Shown here piece by piece: positions 2,221-50,065 of a stretch of DNA of 64,000 bases (within the stretch, counting starts at the first letter, position 1; every line of letters begins with the position of its first letter). The notes below the pieces were generated by a model, which was not told the DNA's origin, made no database searches, and was given only the letters and a program-made list of their open reading frames with translations. Source of the DNA: Mycoplasma sp. SG1 (GTDB lineage Bacteria; Bacillota_I; Bacilli_A; Mycoplasmatales; SG1); NCBI RefSeq assembly GCF_023612375.1, contig NZ_CP076852.1:124001-188000 (forward strand), in the 5' to 3' direction. A program made the translations under genes and the position numbers.

Positions 2221-3633
2221 TTATCCAATGTTAATTTTAATCAGTTGGTTTAATTCGACAGCATACTCCATTGGTAACTGAGAAGCGAATTCTGATAAAT
2301 AACCGATTGTAATCATTTGAATAGCATCCTTTAAGCAAATCCCTTTGCTTTGTAAATAACTAAGTTCTGTATCGCTGATTTTTGAAATTGTTGCTTCGTG
2401 TTCAATGAATGAACTATTATTATTATTAATGTTGGTTGGTAATGTAACTGACTTACTTAAATCATCAATTAATAAAGTATCACATGTCACATTAGCATAA
2501 CAATTATCTGCTTTTTTATCAATAAAAACTTTGCCCCGATAAATTGATTCTCCATGATTAAATGCAATTGTTTTTGAAATAATTTGACTTTTAGTATTTG
2601 AAGCTAAATGGATCATTTTCGATCCTGTATCTTGAATAATATTTTTATCATCAGCAATTGCAACCGACAAAGTGTATCCCCTTGCTTCTTTCCCGATTAA
2701 CATACATGATGGATATTTCATGTTAATTTTTGATCCAAGGTTACCATCGATTCATTCCATAAAACCATTTTCATGGACAACTGCTCTTTTAGTAACTAGA
2801 TTGATAACATTTTTTGATCAGTTTTGGATTGTAGTATAACGGACATGGGCGTTTTTTTTAACAATAACTTCAACGACAGCAGCATGAAGTGAATCTTCTG
2901 AATAAACAGGGGCGGTACATCCCTCTATATAATGAACGCTGGCTCCTTCTTCGACGATAATTAAAGTTCTTTCAAACTGACCAAGGTTTCTTGCGTTTAT
3001 TCTAAAATATGATTGAAGCGGTTTATCAACTTTAACCCCTTTCGGAACATAAATAAAAGATCCACCGCTTCAAATAGCGGTATTTAAGGCAGCATATTTG
3101 TTGTCTTTATAATTAACTACTGATCCAAAGTATTTTTGAAAAAGTTCAGGATGCTTTTTTAAGGCGGTGTCGGTATCAAGAAAAATAACTCCTTGATCTT
3201 CTAATTCTTTTAATAAACTATGATAAACCGCTTCAGATTCATATTGAGTTGAAACACCAGCTAATCATTTTTGTTCAGCCTCAACTATTCCTAACTTAGA
3301 AAAGGTATCTTTAATTTCTTTTGGTACTTTTTCTCATTTATTAGCAACCGATTCAGTTGCTTTTAAGAAATATTTATATTCATTTAGATCAACATATTTA
3401 TCAAGGTTTGGTCCTCATCACGGCTGCCCTCTTTCAATAAAGTGTTGGTAAGATTTTAAACGAAGATCTCGCATTCATTCGTTTTCACCTTTTTTAATCG
3501 AAACTTCTTCGATTAAATCTTTTGAAAGATGTTTTGTGTTTTGATAATAACTTATTTCACGCTTTGAAAAACCATATTTAGAAAGGTAATTAGTTTTTAT
3601 ATCGGTAATATTTTTATTTATCTTTTTTTTCAT
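2221..3633 (-). CDS. sufB: Fe-S cluster assembly scaffold SufB
   Basis: 470 aa, typical for SufB. With SufC and SufD it forms the SufBC2D scaffold on which Fe-S clusters are built in the cytosol. Recognisable segments include [45 protein letters not shown] and [19 protein letters not shown], and the C-terminal beta-helix ending with [22 protein letters not shown]. Several UGA codons encode Trp, including both in the QPWWGP motif. The ATG at 3633 lies 20 bp inside the end of sufD, which suggests translational coupling. It is the last gene of the PFOR-sufC-sufD-sufB cluster. No SufS or SufU is in the window. Confidence 0.96.
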
Positions 3634-4510
3634 TGAAAAATTTGTTGATTGTTTTTTTTAAAGATTGCAAAATCTTTGTTTCAATTTTAATGTCATATAA
3701 GTTTTTTAAAATTTCAACACTATAGCCAAGGGTTAACATTTTTTTAATTTCCTGCTTACTAAAGCCACGACTAAATAAGTAAATGAATTCATTTAAATTA
3801 ATATCCCCGACAGCACATCCATGTGAGCACTTTACATCATTATTATAAACCCCCAAGATTGGTTCATTGTTTATGATTGACTTTTTGTCAAAATTTAAAC
3901 ATTTTATAACCTGATGTGATGAACAGAAACGAATATTAGCTGGAACTATGTTAATAATGCGGTTTTTAATAGTATTTTCACCTAAACATAAATCGGAATT
4001 AATTATGTTTGCATTAGAATTATTTCCTTTATGAATGACATTAATATATTGATTTTTTGTTGAATTTTGTAAAACTGATAATGAATAAATATTTAAATTA
4101 CTTTTTTCACCTAAAAGCTCGCCATTTATCGTTAAATCAATATTATAGTCGTGAATATTGATTAAAAATAACTCAACTGAACTATTTTCTTCTAGCCTTA
4201 AATTAAGAAAATGATGGTTTGATTTTTTAAATAAAATGTAAAAAACCGTTTTTGAGTTATTTTTGAAATTAAAATTTAGTTTAAAAATATCATCATCTTT
4301 TTCTTGAACCTTAATATTTGGTCAAAGAAGTTGAAAATGATAAAAATTATTTTCTTGTAATATAAAATTTAAATAATTAATATTTTTAAGATCTTTTTTA
4401 TTAACTTTAACATTAATAAATTTATCAATATTTGCTTGTAATTCAATATTTAACTCGGATTTAGTCTTTATTTTGGTTTCAATAACTTTATTTTCTTGTT
4501 TTAGCTCCAC
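3614..4510 (-). CDS. sufD: Fe-S cluster assembly protein SufD
   Basis: 298 aa, shorter than typical SufD (about 420 aa) and short at the N-terminus, but with the family hallmark near the C-terminus: NNEPILGVYNNDVKCSHGCAVGDIN, followed by the helical SRGFSKQEIKKMLTLGY tail. SufD is the SufB paralogue of the SufBC2D scaffold and takes part in iron acquisition. The central beta-helix is poorly conserved and rich in Asn and Lys. It overlaps sufC upstream by 50 bp and sufB downstream by 20 bp. The C-terminal signature and the neighbours make the call secure despite low overall similarity. Confidence 0.9.
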
Positions 4511-5300
4511 AAATTCCTAAAAATTTATTTTCGTCTTTGCTTAAATTATAACGGGGGGTAAGATTGTGTTTTTTAAAAAGTCATTGATATCCATCGTTTT
4601 CAATTCTATCTAAAATCGTCGGATCTGATTTTTCAACAACTTGACCATTCAAAACAACATAAACAATGTTCGGTTTTAAAATTTTAAATATTTTTTGATA
4701 GTGACTGACTAAAATTAATGAAACATTTTTTTCTTGTTCAAAATATTTTTTTAAAAAGTCTGTAATTAAAATTAAACTATCATTATCAATTCCAGAGTCG
4801 ATTTCATCTAAAAAGATATAATTTGGTTTTAAGAAATAAATTTGTAAAATTTCCCCTTTTTTTCTTTCTCCACCGCTGAAATCTTCATTAATATTTCGTT
4901 TTAATAAATCAAAATTAAAGCCTAATTCTTTTGTAATTTGATTAACTTTATTATAAAATTCTAAAATTTTAGGTTTTTTGCCTGTTTTTGCAATTAGAAT
5001 TTGTTCAAGAAATTCTAAGTAATTAACACCGTGAATTGTAACTGGATTTTGTCAACTAACATATATACCAGCTAATGATCGTTTGTCAATTGTTAGTTTA
5101 GTGATATTTTTTTCATCAAGAAAAGTATCACCTTCAACTTTAAGACGTGGATTGTTAATAATTCCGTTAATTAAAGATGATTTACCAGCGCCATTTGGAC
5201 CAACGATAGCGTAGATTTTATTCGGTTCAAATTCTAAATTTACATTTTCAACTAATTTATTTTCATCAATCGATACTGATAAATTTTTTACTTTTAACAT
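4461..5300 (-). CDS. sufC: Fe-S cluster assembly ATPase SufC
   Basis: 279 aa ABC-type ATPase that powers SufBD scaffold remodelling. It has Walker A GPNGAGKSS (about residues 34-42), the ABC signature DFSGGERKKGEILQ, Walker B IFLDEIDSGID and the H-loop LVSH. Two UGAs are read as Trp, one straight after SLAGIYVS. The frame runs to TAA at 4461, so the last 16 codons overlap sufD by 50 bp. The usual SufC C-terminus (GYQWL) comes earlier, making this C-terminus longer than usual. It starts 14 bp after the PFOR stop codon. Confidence 0.95.
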
Positions 5301-5314
5301 TTATAATAACGGTT

Positions 5315-8300
5315 TTATTTTTTGATTAACAAATCTAAAACTTGTTTTTCGTACTCTTCTATATTGTTAATATTTTTTATTTCTGTTTTGCTTAAATTTA
5401 ACAATTCCTGATATAAATTTTCATGGTATTGACGCATTTGCGCAAATAATTTAGCAAATACTTTTGGTTTTTTATCAGCTAAACGTTTATAACGTTGTTG
5501 TGATAGAAGGAAATTGATTAAAGTATCAAATTTTGGTGGTTTATAATCAATTTGAAGCGGATTAAGGTTTTGTTCAATTCTTCTTGGGTCATAACGATAA
5601 ATTGGTCAATAACCAGAACTTACAGCATCTCTTTCAAGTTTTTGATGATTTTTCATCCCGCCTTGGATACCATGAGCTATACATGGAGAGTATGCAATAA
5701 CAATTGATGGTCCATCATAGTTTTCAGCTTCAAGCATTGCTTTAATAGACTGGTTAATATTAGCACCCATACAAATTTGAGCAACGTAAATATTTTTATA
5801 TGACATAAAAATCTTACCAAGATCTTTTCTATTTTTACCTTTACCTCCAGCAGCTAAAGATGCAACAGCTGACATATCAGTAGATTTAGATGCTTGTCCT
5901 CCGGTGTTTGAATAAACCTGAGTATCAAGAATAAAGATGTTTAAATTTGAACCACTTGCAAGAATATGATCTAATCCACCGTAACCAATGTCATAAGCTC
6001 AACCATCCCCACCAATAATTCAGTGCGCTTTTTTAACTAAATATGTTTTTAAATTCAAAATGTTTTTAGCGTATTCTGATTTAGAATTTTGACAATGGAA
6101 AAAGATTTGTCCTTTTAACTGACGTTGTTTTTCACGATCAGAATCAGGGGTATCTTTTCATTCTTGTAAATATTTCACCAGTTCTGGTTCAGCATTTTTA
6201 TCGTTGATACAACTATCGATATTTTTTAATAAATCGTTGAATTTATGTCTTAGCGCTAAATGCATTCCATATCCAAATTCTGCGTTATCTTCAAAAAGAG
6301 AGTTAGCTCATGCAGGGCCTTCGCCATCACGATCGGTTGCAAACGGAATGTAAGGTAATGAACCACCATAAATTGATGAACAACCAGTTGCGTTAGCAAT
6401 AATCATATCTTTCCCGAATAATTGCGTTAACATTTTGTAATAAGGGGTTTCACCGCATCCAGGACATGCACCTGAATTTTCAAAATATGGATATAAGAAG
6501 CCTTCTCCTTTGAATGATGTAATTGGGAAAACTTTTTTAACAGTTGTTTCTTTGTATAAATATTCTGTTAATTCAACATTTTTATTTACTTCTTCATTAA
6601 TTGGAACCATTTCTAAAGCTTTAACTGGACATTCTGTCGCACATAATGAACAACCAACGCAGTCTTCAGCGTTAACTTGAATTCTGAAACGATATTGTTC
6701 AGCTCCAATTGCTTTTAAAGATTCAAATGTTTTTGGCGCTCTTAAAATTTCTTGATCATCTAATAGAAATGCTCTAATTGTAGCGTGTGGACAAACGATT
6801 GCACAGCGGTTACATTGAATACATTTTTCTGGAATTCAACGCGGAACCATTTCAGCAGATTTTCTTTTTAGTTTAAAGACGGAATCGCTTCTTAGTGAAC
6901 CATCAACCATATTCAAAGAACCAGATTTTTGGAATTTTGAAACTGGCATTTCATTTCCTTCAAGATAAAAAATTGGTTTTACATATTCATCAATATATTT
7001 ATCTTTTGTTTTTGTAAATAATGATTTTGTAAAGTTAACTTCTAAATTAGCTCATTCAGGATCAACTTTTACTTCAAAAACATTTCGACTTGCTAAATCA
7101 ATCGCTTGGAAATTGATTTCAACAACTTTTCTTCCTTTTGAACCATATGCTTTTTCAGCAAAATATTTCATTGCTTTGATAGAATCATCATATTTCATCA
7201 GATTCTCATTTAGTTTAAAAAAGGCAGATTGCATAATGGTACTTGTTTTACCAGGAATTCCAATTTCACGAGCAATTTTTCCAGCATCAATGATATAAAA
7301 TTTAATTTTTTTAACCGCTAATAAATATTTAACTCTATTTGGCAAAATATTTAATACTTCTTCAGGACTAAAACTTGTATTTAAAAGAAATGTTCCATTA
7401 TCTTTTAGTTGTTCAACCATTTTACATCTCATTAAATATTGATCTTTATTACATGAAACAAAACTAGCTTTTGTTGGGAAATAAGTTGAACGAATCGGTT
7501 TTTTAGAAAAACGTAAAAATGAACGCGTTAATCCTCCAGATTTTAATGAATCAAAAAGGAAATAACCTTGAATATGATAATTAGTTTTTTCAGCTATGAT
7601 TTTAATTGTTGAACGATTAGCAGAAATTGTTCCATCCCCGCCTAAACCTCAAAAAATTAAGGTGTTATTGTCTAAATTTTCTGAATCAGTTAGAAAACTT
7701 TCATCAGTTTCAAGTGATAAGTTAGTAACATCATCAATAATTCCAATTGTAAATTGTGTTTTTGGATCTCGTTTTTTAAGTTCATTGAAAACAGCAACTA
7801 TTTGCGCAGGACTTGTGTTTTTTGATGATAAACCAAAACGACCACCTATAACCTTGATTTTTTTGTTATTTTTTAAGGCGAAAACAACATCAAGATATAG
7901 CGGTTCAGATGGAGCTCCTTGTTCTTTTGTTCGATCAAGAACAGCAATACTTTTAACTGATTGAGGAATTTCATTTAATAAATCTTCAACACTGAAAGGA
8001 CGATAAAGATAAACACAAATAACTCCAACTTTTTCTCCTCTTTTATTTAAATGGTCAACTGTTTCTTTAATCGTTTCAGTTACAGATCCCATCGCTATAA
8101 TAATTCTTGTTGCATTGCTATCACCATAATAAACAAATGGTGCATATCTTTTTTTTGCAAGTTTAGAAGTTAATTTTAAATATTTTTTTGCAATATCAAT
8201 TACTTTATTGTAATGAGCGTTTTGCGATTCAAGGGCTTGGAAGAATGTATCATCATTTTCAGCACCACCACGAACAGTAGGAGTTTCGCTATCTAATTTT

Positions 8301-8932
8301 TTAGTTCTAAACCCTTCTAAAGCTTTAAGATCTAAAAACTGTCTTAACTCATCTTCAGTATATAAATCAACCTTTTGAATCTCACTAGATGTTCTTAAAC
8401 CATCATAAAAATGAATAACTGGACATGAACCAGTAATAGCAAGTCCATGTGCTATAGGAGCAATTCTTGCACAATCTTCAACTGAATGTGAACATAGTAA
8501 TACAGCCCCTGTTTGTCTTACTGCATAAATATCTTGATGATCTCCCATAATTGAAAGAGTTCTTGAAGCGATTGATCTTGCAGGAACATGAATAACGGCT
8601 GGTAACATTTCACCTTTTCATTTGTAAATGTTCGGAATCATTAATAATAATCCTTGTGAAGCTGTAAAAGTAGTAGCTAAACTTCCTAATTGTAAAGCTC
8701 CATGTACTCCTCCAGATGATCCTCCTTCAGACTGAAATTCAAAAACTGATACCTTACTGCCAAATAAATTCTTTTTATTAGCTGAAGATAACGCTTCTAC
8801 CAATTCTGAAATTTCAGTTGATGGACTAATCGGATAAACAGCAGCAACTTCAGTAAATGCATATGCTATATGAGCAACAATCGTATTGCCATCCATAGCT
8901 ACGATTTGTCGGTTAATTTTTTTATTTTCCAT
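5315..8932 (-). CDS. nifJ: Pyruvate:ferredoxin (flavodoxin) oxidoreductase, single-chain
   Basis: 1205 aa, full length for the homodimeric single-polypeptide PFOR, in one uninterrupted frame when UGA is Trp. It converts pyruvate + CoA + oxidised ferredoxin to acetyl-CoA + CO2 + reduced ferredoxin. Visible in order: the N-terminal pyruvate/TPP domain with AAVYPISPSTEISE; domain II with QTGAVLLCSHSVEDC; a gamma-type domain around 7.05-7.6 kb; a two-[4Fe-4S] ferredoxin domain with CIQCNRCAIVCP and CVGCSLCATECPVKALE (about residues 700-775); and the C-terminal TPP domain with CPGCGETPY, ATGCSSIYGG, GGDGWAYDIGYGG and DTQVYSNTGGQ. It has its own transcription unit, separated from pta by a terminator, and leads into sufCDB. 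Most mycoplasmas use pyruvate dehydrogenase instead, so this is a strong anaerobic marker. Confidence 0.98.
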
Positions 8933-9125: not shown

Positions 9126-10124
9126 TAAAAAATGATAATTTTTAAATTATTTTTTTTCTTTAGCTAACAACGCTTGATAAGCGGTTAAAATTGTTGTATT
9201 AAAAATTTCTTTATCATCGCACCCACGACTTAAATCATTGATTGGTTTTTTTAATCCTTGTAATACAGGTCCGATTACATTTCAATCACCTAAACGTTGT
9301 GCTATTTTATAACCAATATTAGCAGATTCAAGATTTGGAAAAACAAATCCGTTAGCTGGTTTTGGTTCTAGTTTTGAATTTGAAAATTTTTGATTTCTAA
9401 CCGTAACTGAAAGAGCTGCATCAAATTGCATTTCTCCATCTCAAGCAAAACCTACATGTTCCTTTTTTAAATCGATAACAGCTTTTTGAACAACTTCAAC
9501 CGATGGTGATGATGCACTTTTATTTGTTGAAAAAGATAAAAGGGCAATATTTGGGGTCATTTTGAAGAAATTTTTAATTTTATTCCCTAATCTTTTTGTT
9601 AAAATAACTAGTTGTTCTGAAGTTGGAGACGGAATGATAGCGCAATCTGTAAAAAAAAGAAATTGATTATTTTTTTCTAAAATCATAAAACTTGAAACCA
9701 ATTTATCGTGACAACCAATGATTTGTAAAGCAGGACGAACTGTATCAGCAGTTGAATAGGTTGCCCCTCCAACTAAGCCATCAACTAATCCTTCATTTAA
9801 ACACATTGTTGCAAAATAGTTATGTTTATTAAATCAGTTAGTTATTTCTTCTTTTGTTTGTTTTCCTTTTCGAATATTAAAAACATTTTCAATCATTTTT
9901 TCTTTATTTTGAAATGTTTTAGGATCGAGAATTTCAAAATTTTCTAAAATTTTTTCTTTTCAACAAATTTGATTTATTTCATCAGTATCGCCTACTAAAA
10001 CTGGTTCAATGATTTGACTTTTCTTTAAAAGTGTGCATGCCTTCAAAACTCTTTTATCATTTCCTTCAGGGAAAATAATTCGAATATTTTTACCTTTTAA
10101 TTCTTTTATAAATTCTAATAACAT
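9126..10124 (-). CDS. pta: Phosphate acetyltransferase
   Basis: 332 aa, the usual length of the short Pta class. It converts acetyl-CoA + Pi to acetyl phosphate + CoA, the step between PFOR and AckA. Recognisable segments are [16 protein letters not shown] at the N-terminus, [25 protein letters not shown] in the middle, [15 protein letters not shown], and [26 protein letters not shown] near the C-terminus. It lies 17 bp downstream of ackA on the same strand. The frame ends at TAA 9126-9128. Confidence 0.97.
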
Positions 10125-10141: not shown

Positions 10142-11344
10142 TTATTTTAAAATTTTGTCAGTATCTTTTGCTATAACTATCTCTTCGTTTGTCGGAATGA
10201 TTAAAAATTTTGTTTTTTCATTTTCAGCTAAGATTAAACAATCATCGATTTTTTTATTAACAATATTTAAATTAATAATTTTATTTATTCTTTCTAAAAT
10301 TAAATTCTGAAATTCTTTTGAATTTTCTCCAATTCCTGCAGTTAAAACAATTCCATCTACTTGACCACATAATTGAAAATAATATTGTCCAATAAAATCA
10401 ACTATTCTATCAACAAACATATTCCAAGCCAAATTAGCTTGTTTATTTGTCGCTTTTTTAGCTAAAATTTCACGTAGATCACCACTTATAAAATCACTTA
10501 CTCCTTTAAGACCAGATTGATTATTTAAAATTTTTATAACTTTTTCAATATCTAAATTTTCTCTTTGAGCCATAAATTGTAAAACGGAAGGATCTAAATC
10601 TCCAGATCTTGTTCCCATCATTAGTCCTCCTAATGGTGAAATGCCCATCGTTGTATTAACTGCTTTATTTTTTTCAACTGCAACAATACTTGAACCCGCT
10701 CCAATATGGCAAATAATTAAATTTAATTCCTTTTTATTAAAAATATTGAAACTTTTTTCTAAAATATAACGATAACTTGATCCATGAAAACCATATTTTC
10801 TAATTTTATATTTTTTATAAAAATGAATAGGAATTGGATAAATGAATCTTTCTGGACTAATAGTTTGATGAAAAGAAGTATCAAAGACTGCTACATGTCG
10901 ACTTCAAGGAAGTTCTTTTTTAAAAATTTTATAAGATAAAAAATTAGCCGGATTATGTAATGGAGCTAATGGATTTAATTCTTCAAATATATGATAATCT
11001 TTTTCTAATATTTCAGATGAAGATTTAAATATTTCTCCTCCTTGAACGAAACGATGACCTATTTTATCAATTTCTTCTTTATTGCTAATAATATTATTTT
11101 CTAAAAGAAAGTTGATAAAAAATTTAATAGCATCGCTTAATGAATAATTTTTTAATTTAAACGTTTTTTTTGAACTGTTTTCTGTTCGAAAATCTGATAA
11201 TGTTGCTTCGCAATTTTCATAATTTAAAGCTTGACAATTAGAAAAAATTATTTTTTGAAAAAGATTATTTTCTTTTTTAAACAAAGCGATTTTTATCGAA
11301 GATGATCCACTATTTACAACTAAAATATATTTTGAATTTTTCAT
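10142..11344 (-). CDS. ackA: Acetate kinase
   Basis: 400 aa, normal length. It transfers phosphate from acetyl phosphate to ADP, giving acetate and ATP by substrate-level phosphorylation. The N-terminal LVVNSGSSSIKIALF, the central KYGFHGSSYRYI and CHIGAGSSIVAV, MGISPLGGLMMGTRSGDLDPS, and the C-terminal LTAGIGENS and PTNEEIVIAKDT are all family signatures. One UGA (10904-10906) encodes Trp. It is the third gene of the flavodiiron-nfu-ackA-pta run, with gaps of 13 to 22 bp. Confidence 0.98.
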
Positions 11345-11365: not shown

Positions 11366-11602
11366 TTATTTTTTATTTACAATTTCAATTTTTATGACTT
11401 CAGGAACCTCATCTAAAAGGATTTGTTCGATCCCGTTTTCAATTGTATCGTCTTGTCAATTACAATCTTGACATGCTCCTAAAAATTTTAAATAAACCAC
11501 TCCATCTTCAAAACCAACTAAAAGAATGTCTCCGCCATCACGATGAAGAAATGGACGAATTTTTTCTAAAGCGTTATTGATTTTTTCTTCAATTGAAATC
11601 AA
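11366..11602 (-). CDS. Nfu-type (NifU C-terminal domain) Fe-S scaffold
   Basis: 78 aa made only of the NifU C-terminal domain. It reads EKIRPFLHRDGGDILLVGFEDGVVYLKFLGACQDC, then NWQDDTIENGIEQILLDEVPEV. The CQDCN dithiol binds the [4Fe-4S] cluster in Nfu proteins that carry clusters to apo-enzymes; the family motif is CxxC, as here. UGA encodes the Trp after CQDCN. The likely start is TTG at 11602, because an in-frame TAA lies just upstream and the domain begins at once (ISIEEKINNAL). It sits 13 bp after the flavodiiron stop and 21 bp before ackA, fitting a job in maturing PFOR and other Fe-S enzymes. Confidence 0.9.
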
Positions 11603-11615
11603 TTTATTTATTTGT

Positions 11616-14267
11616 TTATTTGTTAAATTTTTTTAAGTATAAACTTCAAGCCTGATTTGGGTTTAAAATAATTTCTTCTATGTCTTTGTTGTTTAAAGAT
11701 TCACCAAATAAAAAATTATTTTTATCATCAAAAATAATTTTTGCATATGAATTTAAATCTTTTCAAACAACTTCATTACATTTTTTACAACTATTTAAAG
11801 AATTATAATCACCGAAAGCTACTATTCTAGAATCAAAAACATCTAAAATAAAAGGATAATTAGCGAAATTTGTATAACTATATTTATCGTTAAAGAAGAT
11901 ATTTTTGCTAACAATTTCTGCTTGATCTAAAGCATATGGTCAAATTTTCGGAACTCTTTTATTCTTAAATTCAACTACATCACCGCATGCGTAAACACAA
12001 TTTTGTGACGTTTTCATTTTATCATTAACGATAATTCCAAAATTAGTTTCAATATTTTTACCTTTTAAAAAATTAATATTTGAAACTACACCAATACTTA
12101 AAATATAATAATCTGCTATTATTTCTGTTCCATCAGTAAAGATAATTTTTTTAATTTTATTATTTTCAATTTTGACTTCTTTTATTTGTTTATTTATAAG
12201 AATATCAACATTGTTTTGCAATTTAAGATTTTCATAAAGAGTTTGACTGGCTTCATTATCTAATTGCATTGGTAAAAGTCTTGGTAATGCTTCAATAATT
12301 GTTATTTTATTTCCTAGCGAATGAATACCATAACTTGTTTCAAGACCAAGAAGTCCTCCACCAAAAATAGCAACTGTTTTAGATTTATCTTCTCTTAAAA
12401 TATTTTGAATATGTAATGAGTCATGAATCGCATTTCCAGTAAATAAATTTTCAACATCTTTAGATAAACCTATTTGTGGCAGATAACGAGCAGATGCACC
12501 AGTTGAAATTATTAAATAATCGTATTTAATTGGTTCAGATTCAAAAGTTTCAATTATTTTATCTTCAAACGAAATGTTTTTAACTTTTTGATTAATTAAT
12601 AGTTTGATATTGTTATTTTTAAATCATGTTTTATTTTTTAATAAAAATTCTTTATGTTTTAAAATATCATTAAAATAACTATCAGAAACTAAAGGTCTGT
12701 AATAAGGATAATAGTTTTCATCAGAAATAATTGTAATTCTACTATTTTCACTAATTAGTTTAATTTTTTCAGCAGCTTTTATTCCAGACGCTCCTCCTCC
12801 TAAAATAACAATATCAAAAGCTTTTTCAGATTTTAAAACTTCATCTTTGATTACAACAAATTGTGTATAAGCAGCAGAACATACAGGACATTCAAGTGGA
12901 GGTTGTTTACCTTCAATCACCTCACCACATGCTAAACATTTTCATTTAACAACATTATTTAATGGATTTTTATTAAATAATCATTCTTTGAAACCTGTTT
13001 TTTTTAAAGAACGATTTATTTGTTCAGGAACTTTTCTTTTAATAACAACATCATAAAAAGATTTACCATATTCTTCTAGTTGTTTAATTTCATTTTTATT
13101 TGCTCTAAAATTTATTCTAATTCCTTCAACAACTTTGAATTTTAGTTGTAAAAGTCGTTCTGTTATATTTTTTACTGCTTCCCCGCTTCATCCAAAAGAA
13201 CCAAAACAACTACCTATTTTGTTTCTCATTGGAATAGGATTTAGTTGAGATAAAATTTGATAAATAACTGGTAAAGCGTCTGAATTTATTGTTGGAGAAC
13301 CTAATAATAAAGCGTCACATGTAGCAATATCAGCTAAAATCTTATCATTTAATTCATTAATATTAGAAACATCAACTATATATTCTGAAATACTACATCT
13401 ATTCTCGTTATCTTTAAAATTAATTCCTCTTTTTATAGCTTCAGCTAATTCAGTTGTATAACCGTAAGCTGAACAGTAAACCATAACTATTTTACGATGA
13501 AAATCATCTTTTAAAGTTGTTGCTCATTCACGATAAATATCTATTACCCACTTCACTGATTCATGAGTATCAAAAATTGGTCCATGACCTGTTGCAATAA
13601 AATTGATTTCTTTGTTTTTAATTTTATTTAGAGCAGAAATAATATATTGTTTAAACGGTCCAAAAATTACATCAAAATAATATTTTAATGATGGAATATA
13701 AGTTTTTTTCTCTTCAGGAGTCATTTTTGAGATAAATATCTTATCAAATGAATAATGGGCTCCAAATGAATCACAAGTTACAAGAATTTTTTCTTTATGA
13801 ATATAAGTATAAATCGAGTCTGGTCAATGAAGAAAAGGAGCGGGAATAAATTCAAAGATATTATCGTCTACTTTTAATTCTTTTAATTTTTCTGTTGTTT
13901 GAAATTTAAAATCAATATTTAAAATTTTTCTTAAATATTTAATTGCTACTTCACTTCCAATTATTTCTATTTTAGGATTTAATTCAAGTAGTTTTATTAA
14001 ACTGCCTGAATGATCAGGTTCAGTATGATTAACAATAACATAATCGATATCATTTATTCCATTTTTGAAAATAGCATTAATATTTTTTAAATATTCATAA
14101 AAAAATTTTACTTTTACAGTTTCAAATAAAATGTTTTTTTCACCTGAATAAATGAATGAGTTATATGATGAACCGTGTTCTGTATACATGATAATATCAA
14201 AAACTTTTAAGTTTTTATCTTGAACACCTACATAGTAAAAATTATCTGAAATCTTTATAGTTTTCAT
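11616..14267 (-). CDS. Multidomain flavodiiron protein fused to rubredoxin and NADH:rubredoxin oxidoreductase
   Basis: 883 aa in one frame (UGA = Trp). Domains in order: (1) beta-lactamase-like diiron domain, residues about 1-250, with HTEPDH at 81-86, FLHWPDS, CDSFGAH and ATGHGP supplying the expected iron ligands; (2) flavodoxin domain from about 258, with YCSAYGYTTELAEAI and LLGSPTINSDALP for FMN; (3) short rubredoxin with Cys pairs at 444/447 and 460/463; (4) NAD(P)H:rubredoxin reductase from about 484, with GGGASG at 490-495, AIFGGGLLGLE and YACGDVVEF. A further SCKKC motif lies near residue 826. The layout matches class F flavodiiron proteins of clostridia, which pass electrons from NADH to O2, giving water. 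The role here is probably O2 (perhaps NO) removal protecting PFOR. It heads the nfu-ackA-pta unit. Confidence 0.95.
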
Positions 14268-31652: not shown

Positions 31653-32264
31653 ATGAAAAAATGAAAATGTACTATTTGTGGTGCGGTTTTTGATTCAACT
31701 GAAAAAGATTTAGATAGATGCCCAGTTTGTGGTGCACCTAAAGATAAAATCATTGAATTTGCAGCAGAAGCTCCCACTTCTTCAGGACCATATGGTAAAG
31801 TAGCTCCTACCAAAGGACCTTTAAAATGGCTTGCTGAGCATTACATTGGTATCGCAAAAGATGCTCCAGAAGAAATTAAGGAAAAACTAAGAGGATGTTT
31901 TAAAGCTGAAACTTCAGAAGTTGGAATGTATTTAGCTATGTCAAGACAAGCTTTCCGCGAAGGATATCCAGAAATCGGAAGAGTTTGAGAACAAATCGCT
32001 TTTGAAGAAGCTGAACATGCATCTAAATTCTGTGAAGCTATTGGAGAAGACGTTGCGCCATCAACTCAAGAAAATCTAATAAAAATGATTTATGGAGAAA
32101 ATGGAGCTAACCATATTCGTTATGAAATAGCCCATTGAGCTAAAGTTGATAACCGTAATGACGCTCTTCATGATTTAGTACATGAAATAGCACGTGACGA
32201 AGCTCGCCATGGAAAAGCACAAATAGGTCTTTTAAAAAGATACTTCAATAAAACTATAAAATAA
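31653..32264 (+). CDS. Reverse-type rubrerythrin (N-terminal rubredoxin domain)
   Basis: 203 aa. The rubredoxin-like iron site is at the N-terminus (CTICGAVF ... CPVCGAP, residues about 6-28), ahead of a four-helix diiron domain with [32 protein letters not shown] and [11 protein letters not shown] supplying the ExxH ligands. Reverse rubrerythrins of clostridia act as H2O2 (and O2) reductases fed by NADH:rubredoxin reductase, and here the flavodiiron fusion carries such a reductase. The UGA at codon 4 is Trp, so readers using the standard code miss the start. A GAGG ribosome site precedes it and a strong terminator follows. Confidence 0.93.
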
Positions 32265-43882: not shown

Positions 43883-45393
43883 GTGCCTTTAACAAATACA
43901 CCTAAAAAATATCAATTTAAACAAAAAAGACTTCTTCAGCTTGACTTTGCCCATAAAGAGTATTCAGCTTCATTATTACAACAGATGTTAAATAATGAAG
44001 AATGTTTAGCTTACGTTGCAAGAAGAATAACATCTCTTACAGGGGATGATTTTCACGATTATTTCAAACCACTTGCAAAATATCTTTTAACACAATTTTC
44101 AACTCACAAACATCAAATCGGAATCAAAGAAGCTTTAACAAATTTTCCAGAAACAGATTATCCAGAAATTTATACTTTTATAGTTGATGCTTATGGCAAG
44201 GGAGTCAATCGAGATAAATTAGAAGTTATGGTTGATGAGTTTTTGAATATTTCAACTAGAATTAAAATGATTTTTCTTCTAAATACTTTTTTAGAAAAAA
44301 AAATTTACAGCGATACAAAAATAACAGAAAATACTTTTGAGTACATAACCGATCTTGAGTCACAGTTAAATAAATTGGTCCAAGTCGAATTTACTGAACA
44401 ATCATATTTTACGATTGACCGATTAGGAGCTAGATTTTTAGAGAAAATCAGAACGAGTGCTTTTAAAAGCGATATTATCCCCCTTGGTTATAAACAGCTT
44501 GATAGCATGTTAAATATTAAAAAAGGTGATTTGGTTATAGTAGCAGGTAGACCAAGTATGGGAAAACAGCGTTTGCGTTAAATATCATGCTTCATGTCTC
44601 AAGAGTTTTTAAAGAACAGTTTAAAAAAAATGAAGAACAGCATCTTCAAAATGGAACGAACAATTTTAGTCAAAAGAATATCAAACCAAAAAAGATTCTT
44701 TTTGTTTCTTTAGAGATGACCAAAAATCAAATCTTTGAAAGAATCGTTTTAGCTACTACCCATTTGACAAATAAAGAAATTCATAACTTATCTGAAACAG
44801 ATGGACCTGTAAAAGAAAAGTTTATTAACGATATTGAATCTATTTCAGAAGAATATGATAATATTCTTATCAATGACAACGATTTAACTGATTTTTTTCA
44901 AGCTTTAGCAAGAATCCAATATTTAGTCCAAAAAGACAATATTGGTTTGATATTAATTGACTATCTACAACTGTTAACAATTAACCAAAAACAAAAAGAA
45001 ACTAATCGTCAACAAGAAATAACCCAGATTTCTAAAAATATAAAATTATTTGCTAAAAAATTAAATATTCCCGTTATCCTTTTATCACAACTTTCGCGAA
45101 ATGTTGAAAGAAGGGAAAATAAAAGACCAATTATGAGCGACTTAAGAGAATCAGGTGCCATTGAACAAGATGCTGATGTCATTCTTTTTCTTTACCGCGA
45201 TTCTTATTACGCAAATACTGAAAGAAATGAAGCGGTAGAAAAACAATTTATCGCCCAAAAAGCCGAAGATCCAGAAAAAGGTTCAGATAAAGTAGAAGTT
45301 CTTATTTCAAAAAATAGAAACGGCGAGATCGGTCATTGTAATTTAAAATTTTGGGGCAAATATAGTTATTTCTGAGAAGAAAGGGGAAACTAA
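43883..45393 (+). CDS. dnaB: Replicative DNA helicase DnaB (DnaC in Bacillus), interrupted by a 1-base frameshift
   Basis: The hexameric helicase of the replication fork. The GTG start at 43883 leads into the N-terminal collar domain and then IVAGRPSMGK, the first half of Walker A. At the A-run 44563-44566 the frame breaks: this frame ends at TAA 44579-44581, while the next frame continues in register as TAFALNIMLHVSRVF, LFVSLEMTKNQI, LILIDYLQLLTI (Walker B), VILLSQLSRNVERRENKRPIMSDLRESGAIEQDADVI and ISKNRNGEIG, to TAA 45391-45393. One extra A would restore the full Walker A. A homopolymer sequencing error is most likely, since this gene is essential; -1 slippage on AAAA is the alternative. 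Confidence 0.9.
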
Positions 45394-46370: not shown

Positions 46371-47060
46371 ATGGAAATAAATGATTTTCAGTCTTTCAAA
46401 GAAAATATTGATAAAAGTTGAATTGATATTTTTAATGCTGAATATCAAAAAAAATATTTCTACAGTTTATTAAACTTTTTAGAACAGGAATATAAAGATA
46501 AAATTATATATCCACCAAAAGAGTTAATATTTCATGCTTTTTATGAATCTAGATTAGATAATTTAAAAGTTATTATTATTGGTCAAGATCCTTATCATCA
46601 ACCATTTCAAGCTGATGGTCTTGCATTCAGTGTATCACCAGCGACGAAAATAACTTCATCATTAAGGAATATTTTTAAAGAATTAAATTCAGATTTAGGA
46701 ATTAATAATTTAAATTTATCATTATCTAATTGAGCAAAACAAGGGGTATTATTATTAAATACGACTTTAACTGTTAAGGAAGGGGAACCTTTATCACATA
46801 AAAATATAGGTTGAAATACATTTATTATCAATATATTAAATGCTATCTTTCAAATTAAGAAAGAAATCATTTTAATTCTTTGAGGTAAAAAGGCTCAAAA
46901 ATTAATTTTATCATTAGATTTCAAAAATAAACCTATAATTTTAAAAGCAGGACATCCGAGTGGTTTGAGCGCAAAATATTTTTTAGGATGTTGCCATTTT
47001 TCAAAAGTTAATCAAATATTAATTGAAAATAATTCAGAACCAATAAATTGAAAAACCTAA
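46371..47060 (+). CDS. ung: Uracil-DNA glycosylase
   Basis: 229 aa. It removes uracil from DNA. The water-activating motif GQDPYHQPFQADGLAFS (Asp near residue 73), LLLNTTLTVKEGEP, ILILWGKKAQ and the HPSGLSAKYFLGCCHF loop are diagnostic. UGA Trp codons are used throughout, including in LSNWAKQG and INWKT. Its end overlaps the next gene by 13 bp. Confidence 0.97.
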
Positions 47061-47860
47061 AATTTAATATTATTCATCACTTCAAGGAAGTTAAGTTAAA
47101 AAATAATAAATTAACTACTAAGAAAATTATTAATATTTCTATATTTTCTGCAGCTAGTGTAGCGATGATTGTTGTTCTTTTTTCTTATACGCCAATTTTA
47201 ATTTTTCCAACCGCTAAAATTGCTTTTGAAGGTGTTTTTATCAAAATCGTTGGTTATTTATTTGGACCATTTTGTGGAGCAATTATTGGATTAATAACAG
47301 AATTATTAGTTAATTTAATTCGACCTAGCTTTGTTCATTGAGTATTTTTTGTCACTATGATAGTTTATGGTTTAATTGGGGGAATTGGTAATTTTATTAA
47401 CCGTAGTTTTAGTTACAGGTTAAAAATGATTAGTTTTTTTCTTTTTTTAGGTTTAGTTTTAGGGCTTTATGTCGGACTTTGATATTATTATGACAGTCAT
47501 GGTTTAGTTACTACAGGTTCATTTATTGATAGTATTTTTAAATCCGCCCTCCTGATTAGTTTCTTGGTTATAACGATTATTTTAATCGCAATATTAGCTA
47601 TATTTATCAGTTGTTGCCATTTTTTAAAAAAACAAAAATTAGTCGCAGATTTAATTCCGATTATTATTTTTTCAGGAATTTTAGATTTTGGGATCGGAAA
47701 TTTCCTAATCCCAATCGCTGATCATTCAATTTTAGGAATATCATACGGAACTCTAGTCTTTTTAAAATTTTTCGTTTCCCCTATCATCTTTTTATTTAAT
47801 ATTGCTATTATTTATACAGTTGTTACAGTTTTAAATAAAATTTTAAAAAATCATGCCTAA
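47048..47860 (+). CDS. ECF transporter S component, probably for folate
   Basis: 270 aa membrane protein, TTG start at 47048 inside the end of ung. About six hydrophobic segments; IKIVGYLFGPFCGAIIGLITELLVNLI is the typical ECF S-component sequence (FGPxxGxxxGxxxD-like). S components capture a vitamin and use the shared EcfAA'T energy module, which is not in this window. The 8-bp overlap with folC suggests a folate substrate (FolT), but this is inferred from context. Confidence 0.82.
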
Positions 47861-49129: not shown

Positions 49130-50065
49130 GTGGAATATTTCTATTGATTTATTATTCTTTTTGGAGCTTTAATAGTCGTTTTTCTTTTAGAGCATTATAT
49201 TTTTAAAATAAATACTTTTAAACCATTAAATAAAATTATTATTAGCAGAATAGCTCATTGCGGTCTTTTCATTGCAGTCGCTATTATTTTACAGCTTTTA
49301 TCAAATTCTGTTTTTGCATTTAGCCGTTATTTACAGTTCCCGTTATCAAACATACCATTAGCTTATACTGGTTTTTTGTTTGGTCCATTTTATGGTTTTT
49401 TATCTGGAATTATTTATGATTGTTTAAATACATTATTTGGAGTTATAAACGGAGCATATCATCCTGGATTTACTTTTGTTAGCGGTTGCTATGGTTTAAT
49501 TCCTGGATTTTTAGTTCTTTTAATTGTTAAATTTTATAAATTCTTTCATAAATATGGATTTTTTATCATATGGGGATTAATTTTGGCTGTTTTAACATGA
49601 ATTATTATTTATACGATATTAAATCAAAATACATTAGCTGACAAACTTTCGCTTTCAAAAACTGTTTTTTTTAGTATTTATTTTTCTGTTATTTTTATTT
49701 TTTACTCCGTTGTCTTGATATTATTTATTTATAATTTTAAGAAAAATAATATTAGAAATATTAATCTTTTTCATTTAATATTTCTAACTTTCTTCTTTGA
49801 GATGATATTTGTTTCGTTTTTTTTAACCCCAATCCTTTTAAAGCAGATATATGGCGTTCCTGTTAGTGTATGATTATTAGTTAGAATAACTATATCCCCG
49901 TTAACTTTTGGATTGGTAGCTTTATTTACCGTTTTGATAACTTACCGTCTAAAAAATGTAATTACCGCTGATAAAATGTTGTATTATGTTATGAATCCAA
50001 AAGTTAAAATTCTAAATACAAGCACAATGAATGATAATAATATAAAGCAAAAAAATACGCAATAA
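49130..50065 (+). CDS. ECF transporter S component, substrate unknown
   Basis: 311 aa, GTG start at 49130. An N-terminal anchor is followed by [28 protein letters not shown], the ECF S-component motif, and four more hydrophobic segments ([68 protein letters not shown]). It is a second S component right after folC, similar in layout to the first. Either it is a paralogue with another vitamin or both serve folate forms. Confidence 0.78.

Follow-up and report, generated by a model that had tools for sequence, protein, structure and literature searches.

The closest described systems are CD1623, the class F flavodiiron protein of Clostridioides difficile, and TvFDPF1-3 of Trichomonas vaginalis. 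The enzymes of both organisms depend on NADH and O2 and form water (PMC6033852, PMC9364112). The C. difficile enzyme is selective for O2 and has a negligible NO reductase activity (PMC6033852). TvFDPF1-3 are proven water-forming NADH oxidases of an anaerobic host with a PFOR-based metabolism, the classic NADH oxidase activity of T. vaginalis is that of its class F protein, and cryo-EM of TvFDPF3 has revealed a subdomain rotation of the core (PMC9364112). No published report of a class F flavodiiron protein in a mollicute reading UGA as tryptophan (Mycoplasmatales) was found in the literature. In the available parts of the articles on Trichomonas-associated mollicutes (PMC5476646, PMC10557491), PFOR and rubrerythrin are mentioned, while a flavodiiron protein is not.

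Such a protein is encoded by Mycoplasma sp. SG1. Its gene, fdpF, is located at positions 11616..14267 on the reverse strand of the window, i.e., the whole 64,000-nucleotide stretch that was analysed, which is part of a host genome consisting of a single 622,752-base contig. Judging from its sequence, fdpF almost certainly encodes a class F flavodiiron protein (FDP_F) with the predicted activity of a self-sufficient, soluble NADH:O2 oxidoreductase. Under genetic code 4, the region is one open reading frame of 883 amino acids, in which nine tryptophans are encoded by TGA (W148, W248, W360, W429, W442, W548, W776, W835 and W874). Translation with code 11 yields only fragments, the longest of 147 amino acids. 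The single frame that had been reported originally is thus confirmed; the accompanying statement that UGA codons hide the gene from annotation holds where code 4 is not applied, but the use of this code is routine for mollicutes. The whole chain matches other mollicute fusions with E-values of about 1e-180, far beyond a chance match, and the frame with its domains can be regarded as genuine at the sequence level. The type of enzyme is known; the novelty is taxonomic and contextual, extending the class F family to a mollicute in which UGA encodes tryptophan. Elsewhere in the window, the replicative helicase gene dnaB occupies two frames (43883-44581 and 44587-45393, forward strand), separated by what appears to be a frameshift of one base, within a run of A at the Walker A motif. 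A gene that is truly split seems less likely than an assembly error or a slippage site, and this frameshift warns that indels are possible in other genes of the window.

Four domains follow each other in FDP_F, each matching its Pfam model above the curated cut-off, and all coordinates given here refer to the reverse strand. The metallo-beta-lactamase-like diiron domain (aa 1-253, 13509..14267; ODP 5e-20, with ODP/Lactamase_B spanning aa 38-229) carries the ligands H81, E83, D85, H86, H147, D166 and H228. It is directly followed by a flavodoxin-like FMN domain (aa 259-405, 13053..13493; Flavodoxin_1 1.6e-6, aa 263-397), and a single match extends over the resulting flavodiiron core (aa 4-405), with an NCBIfam flavorubredoxin model spanning aa 4-406. 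A short-spaced rubredoxin (aa 442-470, 12858..12944; RUBY_RBDX 6e-8 over the same residues) contains the motif C444-X2-C447-X12-C460-X2-C463. The chain ends with the NADH:rubredoxin oxidoreductase domain (aa 484-883, 11619..12818; Pyr_redox_2 5.6e-51, aa 484-783), with a GGGASG motif at residue 490 for FAD and a GGGLLG motif at 636 for NADH. All features that define class F by sequence (diiron ligands, flavodoxin, short-spaced rubredoxin and Pyr_redox_2 reductase) are therefore found in this protein, and the proposed fusion of the path from NADH to the diiron site in one chain is borne out by the domain order and the intact ligands and motifs.

The seven diiron ligands and the four rubredoxin cysteines are kept in 82 out of 82 aligned sequences, and they are the same as those named for the enzymes of C. 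difficile (PMC6033852) and TvFDPF3 (PMC9364112). Both GxGxxG motifs are near-constant in this alignment. What little variation there is, chiefly G/A as the third residue of the first motif, has been described previously for class F. CD1623 shares with FDP_F the four domains and their order, the short-spaced rubredoxin and the diiron ligands (PMC6033852); in comparison, only FDP_F has a host with UGA-encoded tryptophan, nfu-ackA-pta as neighbours and a private SCKKC motif. TvFDPF1-3, although eukaryotic, are alike in architecture, with 871 amino acids for 883 in FDP_F, and the mollicute resembles their host in being anaerobic and PFOR-based (PMC9364112).

Among PDB entries, the closest sequences to the first 405 residues are E. 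coli flavorubredoxin, Moorella FprA and D. gigas ROO. For aa 482-823, the closest is the NirB-family reductase 3klj, and ferredoxin reductases match as well. An AlphaFold model of the full chain, built with a 46-sequence alignment, has a mean pLDDT of 87.4 and a pTM of 0.54. In a Foldseek search, this model retrieved the expected flavodiiron cores and putidaredoxin/ferredoxin reductases with E-values from 1e-34 to 1e-28. The rmsd of the flavodiiron match is high, at ~7 Å over ~410 columns, which could mirror a subdomain rotation of the modelled core like the one in TvFDPF3, or result from modelling as a monomer. The relative placement of the domains in the model is uncertain, given the pTM and the only listed segment with a pLDDT below 50 (aa 417-424), situated in the linker before the rubredoxin. 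With the domains, the PDB relatives, homologs including those of C. difficile and the invariant ligands, the likeness to clostridial class F proteins noted in the original prediction is well founded.

The gene neighbourhood is compact. On the same strand, yidC is followed after 141 bp by fdpF, after 13 bp by nfu (11366..11602, TTG start), after 21 bp by ackA (10142..11344) and after 17 bp by pta (9147..10124, probable ATG start at 10124). The 78-residue nfu product is a NifU-like Fe-S scaffold domain (Pfam NifU 2e-23), and the other two genes encode acetate kinase (Pfam 1.2e-114) and phosphotransacetylase (Pfam 7e-95). After a further 214 bp comes pfor (5315..8932, 1205 aa), the pyruvate:ferredoxin oxidoreductase (Pfam POR_N 7e-61, among others), and 14 bp later the overlapping Fe-S assembly genes sufC-sufD-sufB (2221..5300), which were named by sequence inspection. 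The spacing suggests that fdpF-nfu-ackA-pta are probably co-transcribed. A promoter scan of the neighbourhood remained at background, promoter and terminator scans being uninformative in this AT-rich DNA. Among 80 homologous loci, a position of fdpF beside genes for PFOR, pta or reverse rubrerythrin is a minority arrangement. The gene lies directly downstream of PFOR in one locus (L090), about 1 kb from pta in two (L058 and L098), and next to a reverse rubrerythrin gene in four (L034, L049, L060 and L064), the latter being two pairs of related genomes and so about two independent cases. These neighbourhoods point to protection of PFOR-acetate metabolism from O2 and to teamwork with peroxide reductases, and the one studied here would connect Fe-S assembly and the PFOR-acetate pathway with the removal of O2.

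In the proposed mechanism, NADH would reduce the FAD of the C-terminal reductase. Electrons would then be handed on singly, first to the Fe(Cys)4 rubredoxin, next to FMN and finally to the diiron site for the reduction of O2 to water. The enzyme would thereby clear O2, which would otherwise inactivate PFOR and the Fe-S enzymes of an anaerobic mollicute, and regenerate NAD+, probably being co-expressed with nfu-ackA-pta. The window also contains two ECF-type substrate-binding components with a match to the riboflavin-transporter family, close together on the forward strand (47048-47860 and 49130-50065). A connection with the flavin requirement of FDP_F and other flavoenzymes is conceivable.

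The reductase might also supply electrons to the reverse rubrerythrin encoded at 31653..32264 on the forward strand, as had been suggested originally. This protein of 203 amino acids has an N-terminal short-spaced rubredoxin (Pfam RUBY_RBDX, aa 4-32) and a C-terminal diiron four-helix bundle (Pfam Rubrerythrin, aa 79-188). It is, together with FDP_F, one of just two proteins with a short-type rubredoxin-like domain in the host genome, where no canonical rubredoxin was found. Only three proteins of the genome have a Pyr_redox_2 domain: FDP_F, TrxB with its CAVC active site, and an MnmG-like protein. By sequence, the reductase of FDP_F is thus the only one of the NADH:rubredoxin type found in the host genome, which favours the idea that it feeds the reverse rubrerythrin. 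In vitro, E. coli NROR combined with a rubredoxin domain feeds the reverse rubrerythrins of C. difficile (PMC7482061). Considering also the adjacency in four other loci, such an electron transfer is plausible.

Two further functions had been envisaged originally. An additional CxxC motif, SCKKC at aa 826-830 (C827/C830; 11778..11792, reverse strand), had been counted as a fifth module and a candidate metal or redox site. The motif is truly present, as one of just three CxxC motifs in the chain, and in principle an additional metal or dithiol redox centre could be built from it and further residues, giving this class F enzyme another function. However, none of the 81 homologs in the 82-sequence alignment has a CxxC at this position, which is an ordinary surface loop ahead of the C-terminal strands. 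The pLDDT around it is only 64-75, no second ligand pair was found nearby in the sequence, and a CxxC appears somewhere in 3% of the shuffles of the reductase half. An added site of this kind is hardly credible, and SCKKC was rejected as a functional site or module. It is lineage-specific, unconserved and probably without function. Of the five modules, the diiron, flavodoxin, rubredoxin and reductase parts stand, and SCKKC is no domain, which leaves four. What appear by sequence to be genuine five-module flavodiiron fusions are the Syntrophomonadaceae-type class F proteins (L037, L044, L049, L060 and L066), with a second short-spaced rubredoxin at the extreme C-terminus. The other envisaged function is the reduction of NO, and FDP_F might even mainly detoxify NO like E. 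coli flavorubredoxin, as both the top named NCBIfam models and the top PDB relatives of its core are anaerobic NO-reductase flavorubredoxins. Yet the protein scores far under the NCBIfam equivalog cut-offs for NorV (257.7 against 635 bits and 230.4 against 711 bits). The preference for O2 over NO is deduced from homologs, and by analogy with the O2-selective C. difficile enzyme (PMC6033852), NO reduction is unlikely and was probably wrongly expected; NO detoxification as the main role is very improbable.

The preferred reading of FDP_F as an O2-scavenging enzyme leaves room for a second role of its NADH oxidation. Searches of the host genome for L-LDH, PFL, Fe-Fe hydrogenase, Fe-ADH/AdhE and alanine dehydrogenase returned no match, whereas pfor, pta and ackA are present. 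Glycolytic NADH would then have no sink among those tested except FDP_F, which is only a lead. As the other Pyr_redox_2 proteins are TrxB and the MnmG-like protein, there is no separate water-forming NADH oxidase among them, and FDP_F is, by predicted function, the only NADH:O2 oxidase found in the genome. Together with the precedent of T. vaginalis, this makes it conceivable, if doubtful, that FDP_F is the main regenerator of NAD+, besides or instead of its defensive role, with O2 as the terminal acceptor after the loss of fermentative sinks. On the other hand, the genome may hold sinks beyond the five searched for, such as D-LDH, GpsA, Zn-ADH, malate dehydrogenase, NiFe hydrogenase or Rnf, the single-contig genome has a stated completeness of 81%, and a cell using PFOR is expected to live at very low O2, with little flux through an O2 sink. 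More speculative still, and rather improbable, is a "soluble respiration" by which an anaerobic PFOR mollicute without fermentative NADH sinks would live: FDP_F would burn NADH with O2, its reductase would power peroxide removal by rubrerythrin, and acetate kinase would make ATP. Since several usual routes of NADH disposal seem to be missing from the genome, FDP_F could nevertheless matter beyond defence, and a minimal genome with few other NADH sinks offers a clean test of class F as a defence system or a redox valve. Despite the presence of PFOR, Pta and AckA, the five enzymes searched for gave no outlet for reduced ferredoxin or for NADH. Ca. Mycoplasma girerdii differs in having PFL, and its PFOR has 1192 amino acids (PMC5476646) compared to 1205 here; identity of the host with this species was rejected as unlikely.

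A homolog scan of genome contigs, with FDP_F and two mollicute fusions as the query alignment, identified the 80 loci, with 33-40% identity over nearly the whole chain; almost all encode one full-length fusion. Nearly all belong to Clostridia (C. difficile being L036, L038 and L039), in addition to Fusobacteriaceae, a spirochaete MAG and others. FDP_F is divergent: its identity to any other row of the 82-row alignment does not go beyond 39%, and its end branch is 1.87. A recent transfer from a clostridium was rejected, as no close donor was found, identities do not exceed 40% and the end branch is long.

Within the order of the window, where all other genomes searched belong to other families, 36 out of 320 genomes have an ODP match above the cut-off and 34 have PFOR. 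The whole chain was used to search 23 genomes in which the ODP match is strong, and a fused class F protein was found in three, i.e., the window's genome, G007 and G014. In G002, core and reductase are adjacent separate genes, and the remaining genomes match over the core only. The latter are stand-alone class A proteins, which share the two-domain core of FDP_F but lie on branches distinct from those of class F. In the whole-chain tree, the three fusions group together with an SH-aLRT of 97, subject to a warning of long branches. A single mollicute origin of all the order's class F copies, which the AU test does not reject (p-AU 0.31), is a possibility.

The core of G002 (L004, G002:C1:184773-188987) is the sister of the window core (support 100/99.8). 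Its reductase gene lies directly downstream, but the two parts are separate, with no rubredoxin between them. The best tree nests this core inside class F, but the alternative is not rejected (p-AU 0.20), and the reductase is placed apart from the class F reductases with a weak support of 87. A fission of the class F gene in G002 is at best suggested, and the split version provides a natural comparison for the benefit of the fusion. Elsewhere, G002 has a stand-alone short rubredoxin-like frame of 49 amino acids (L143:329-478).
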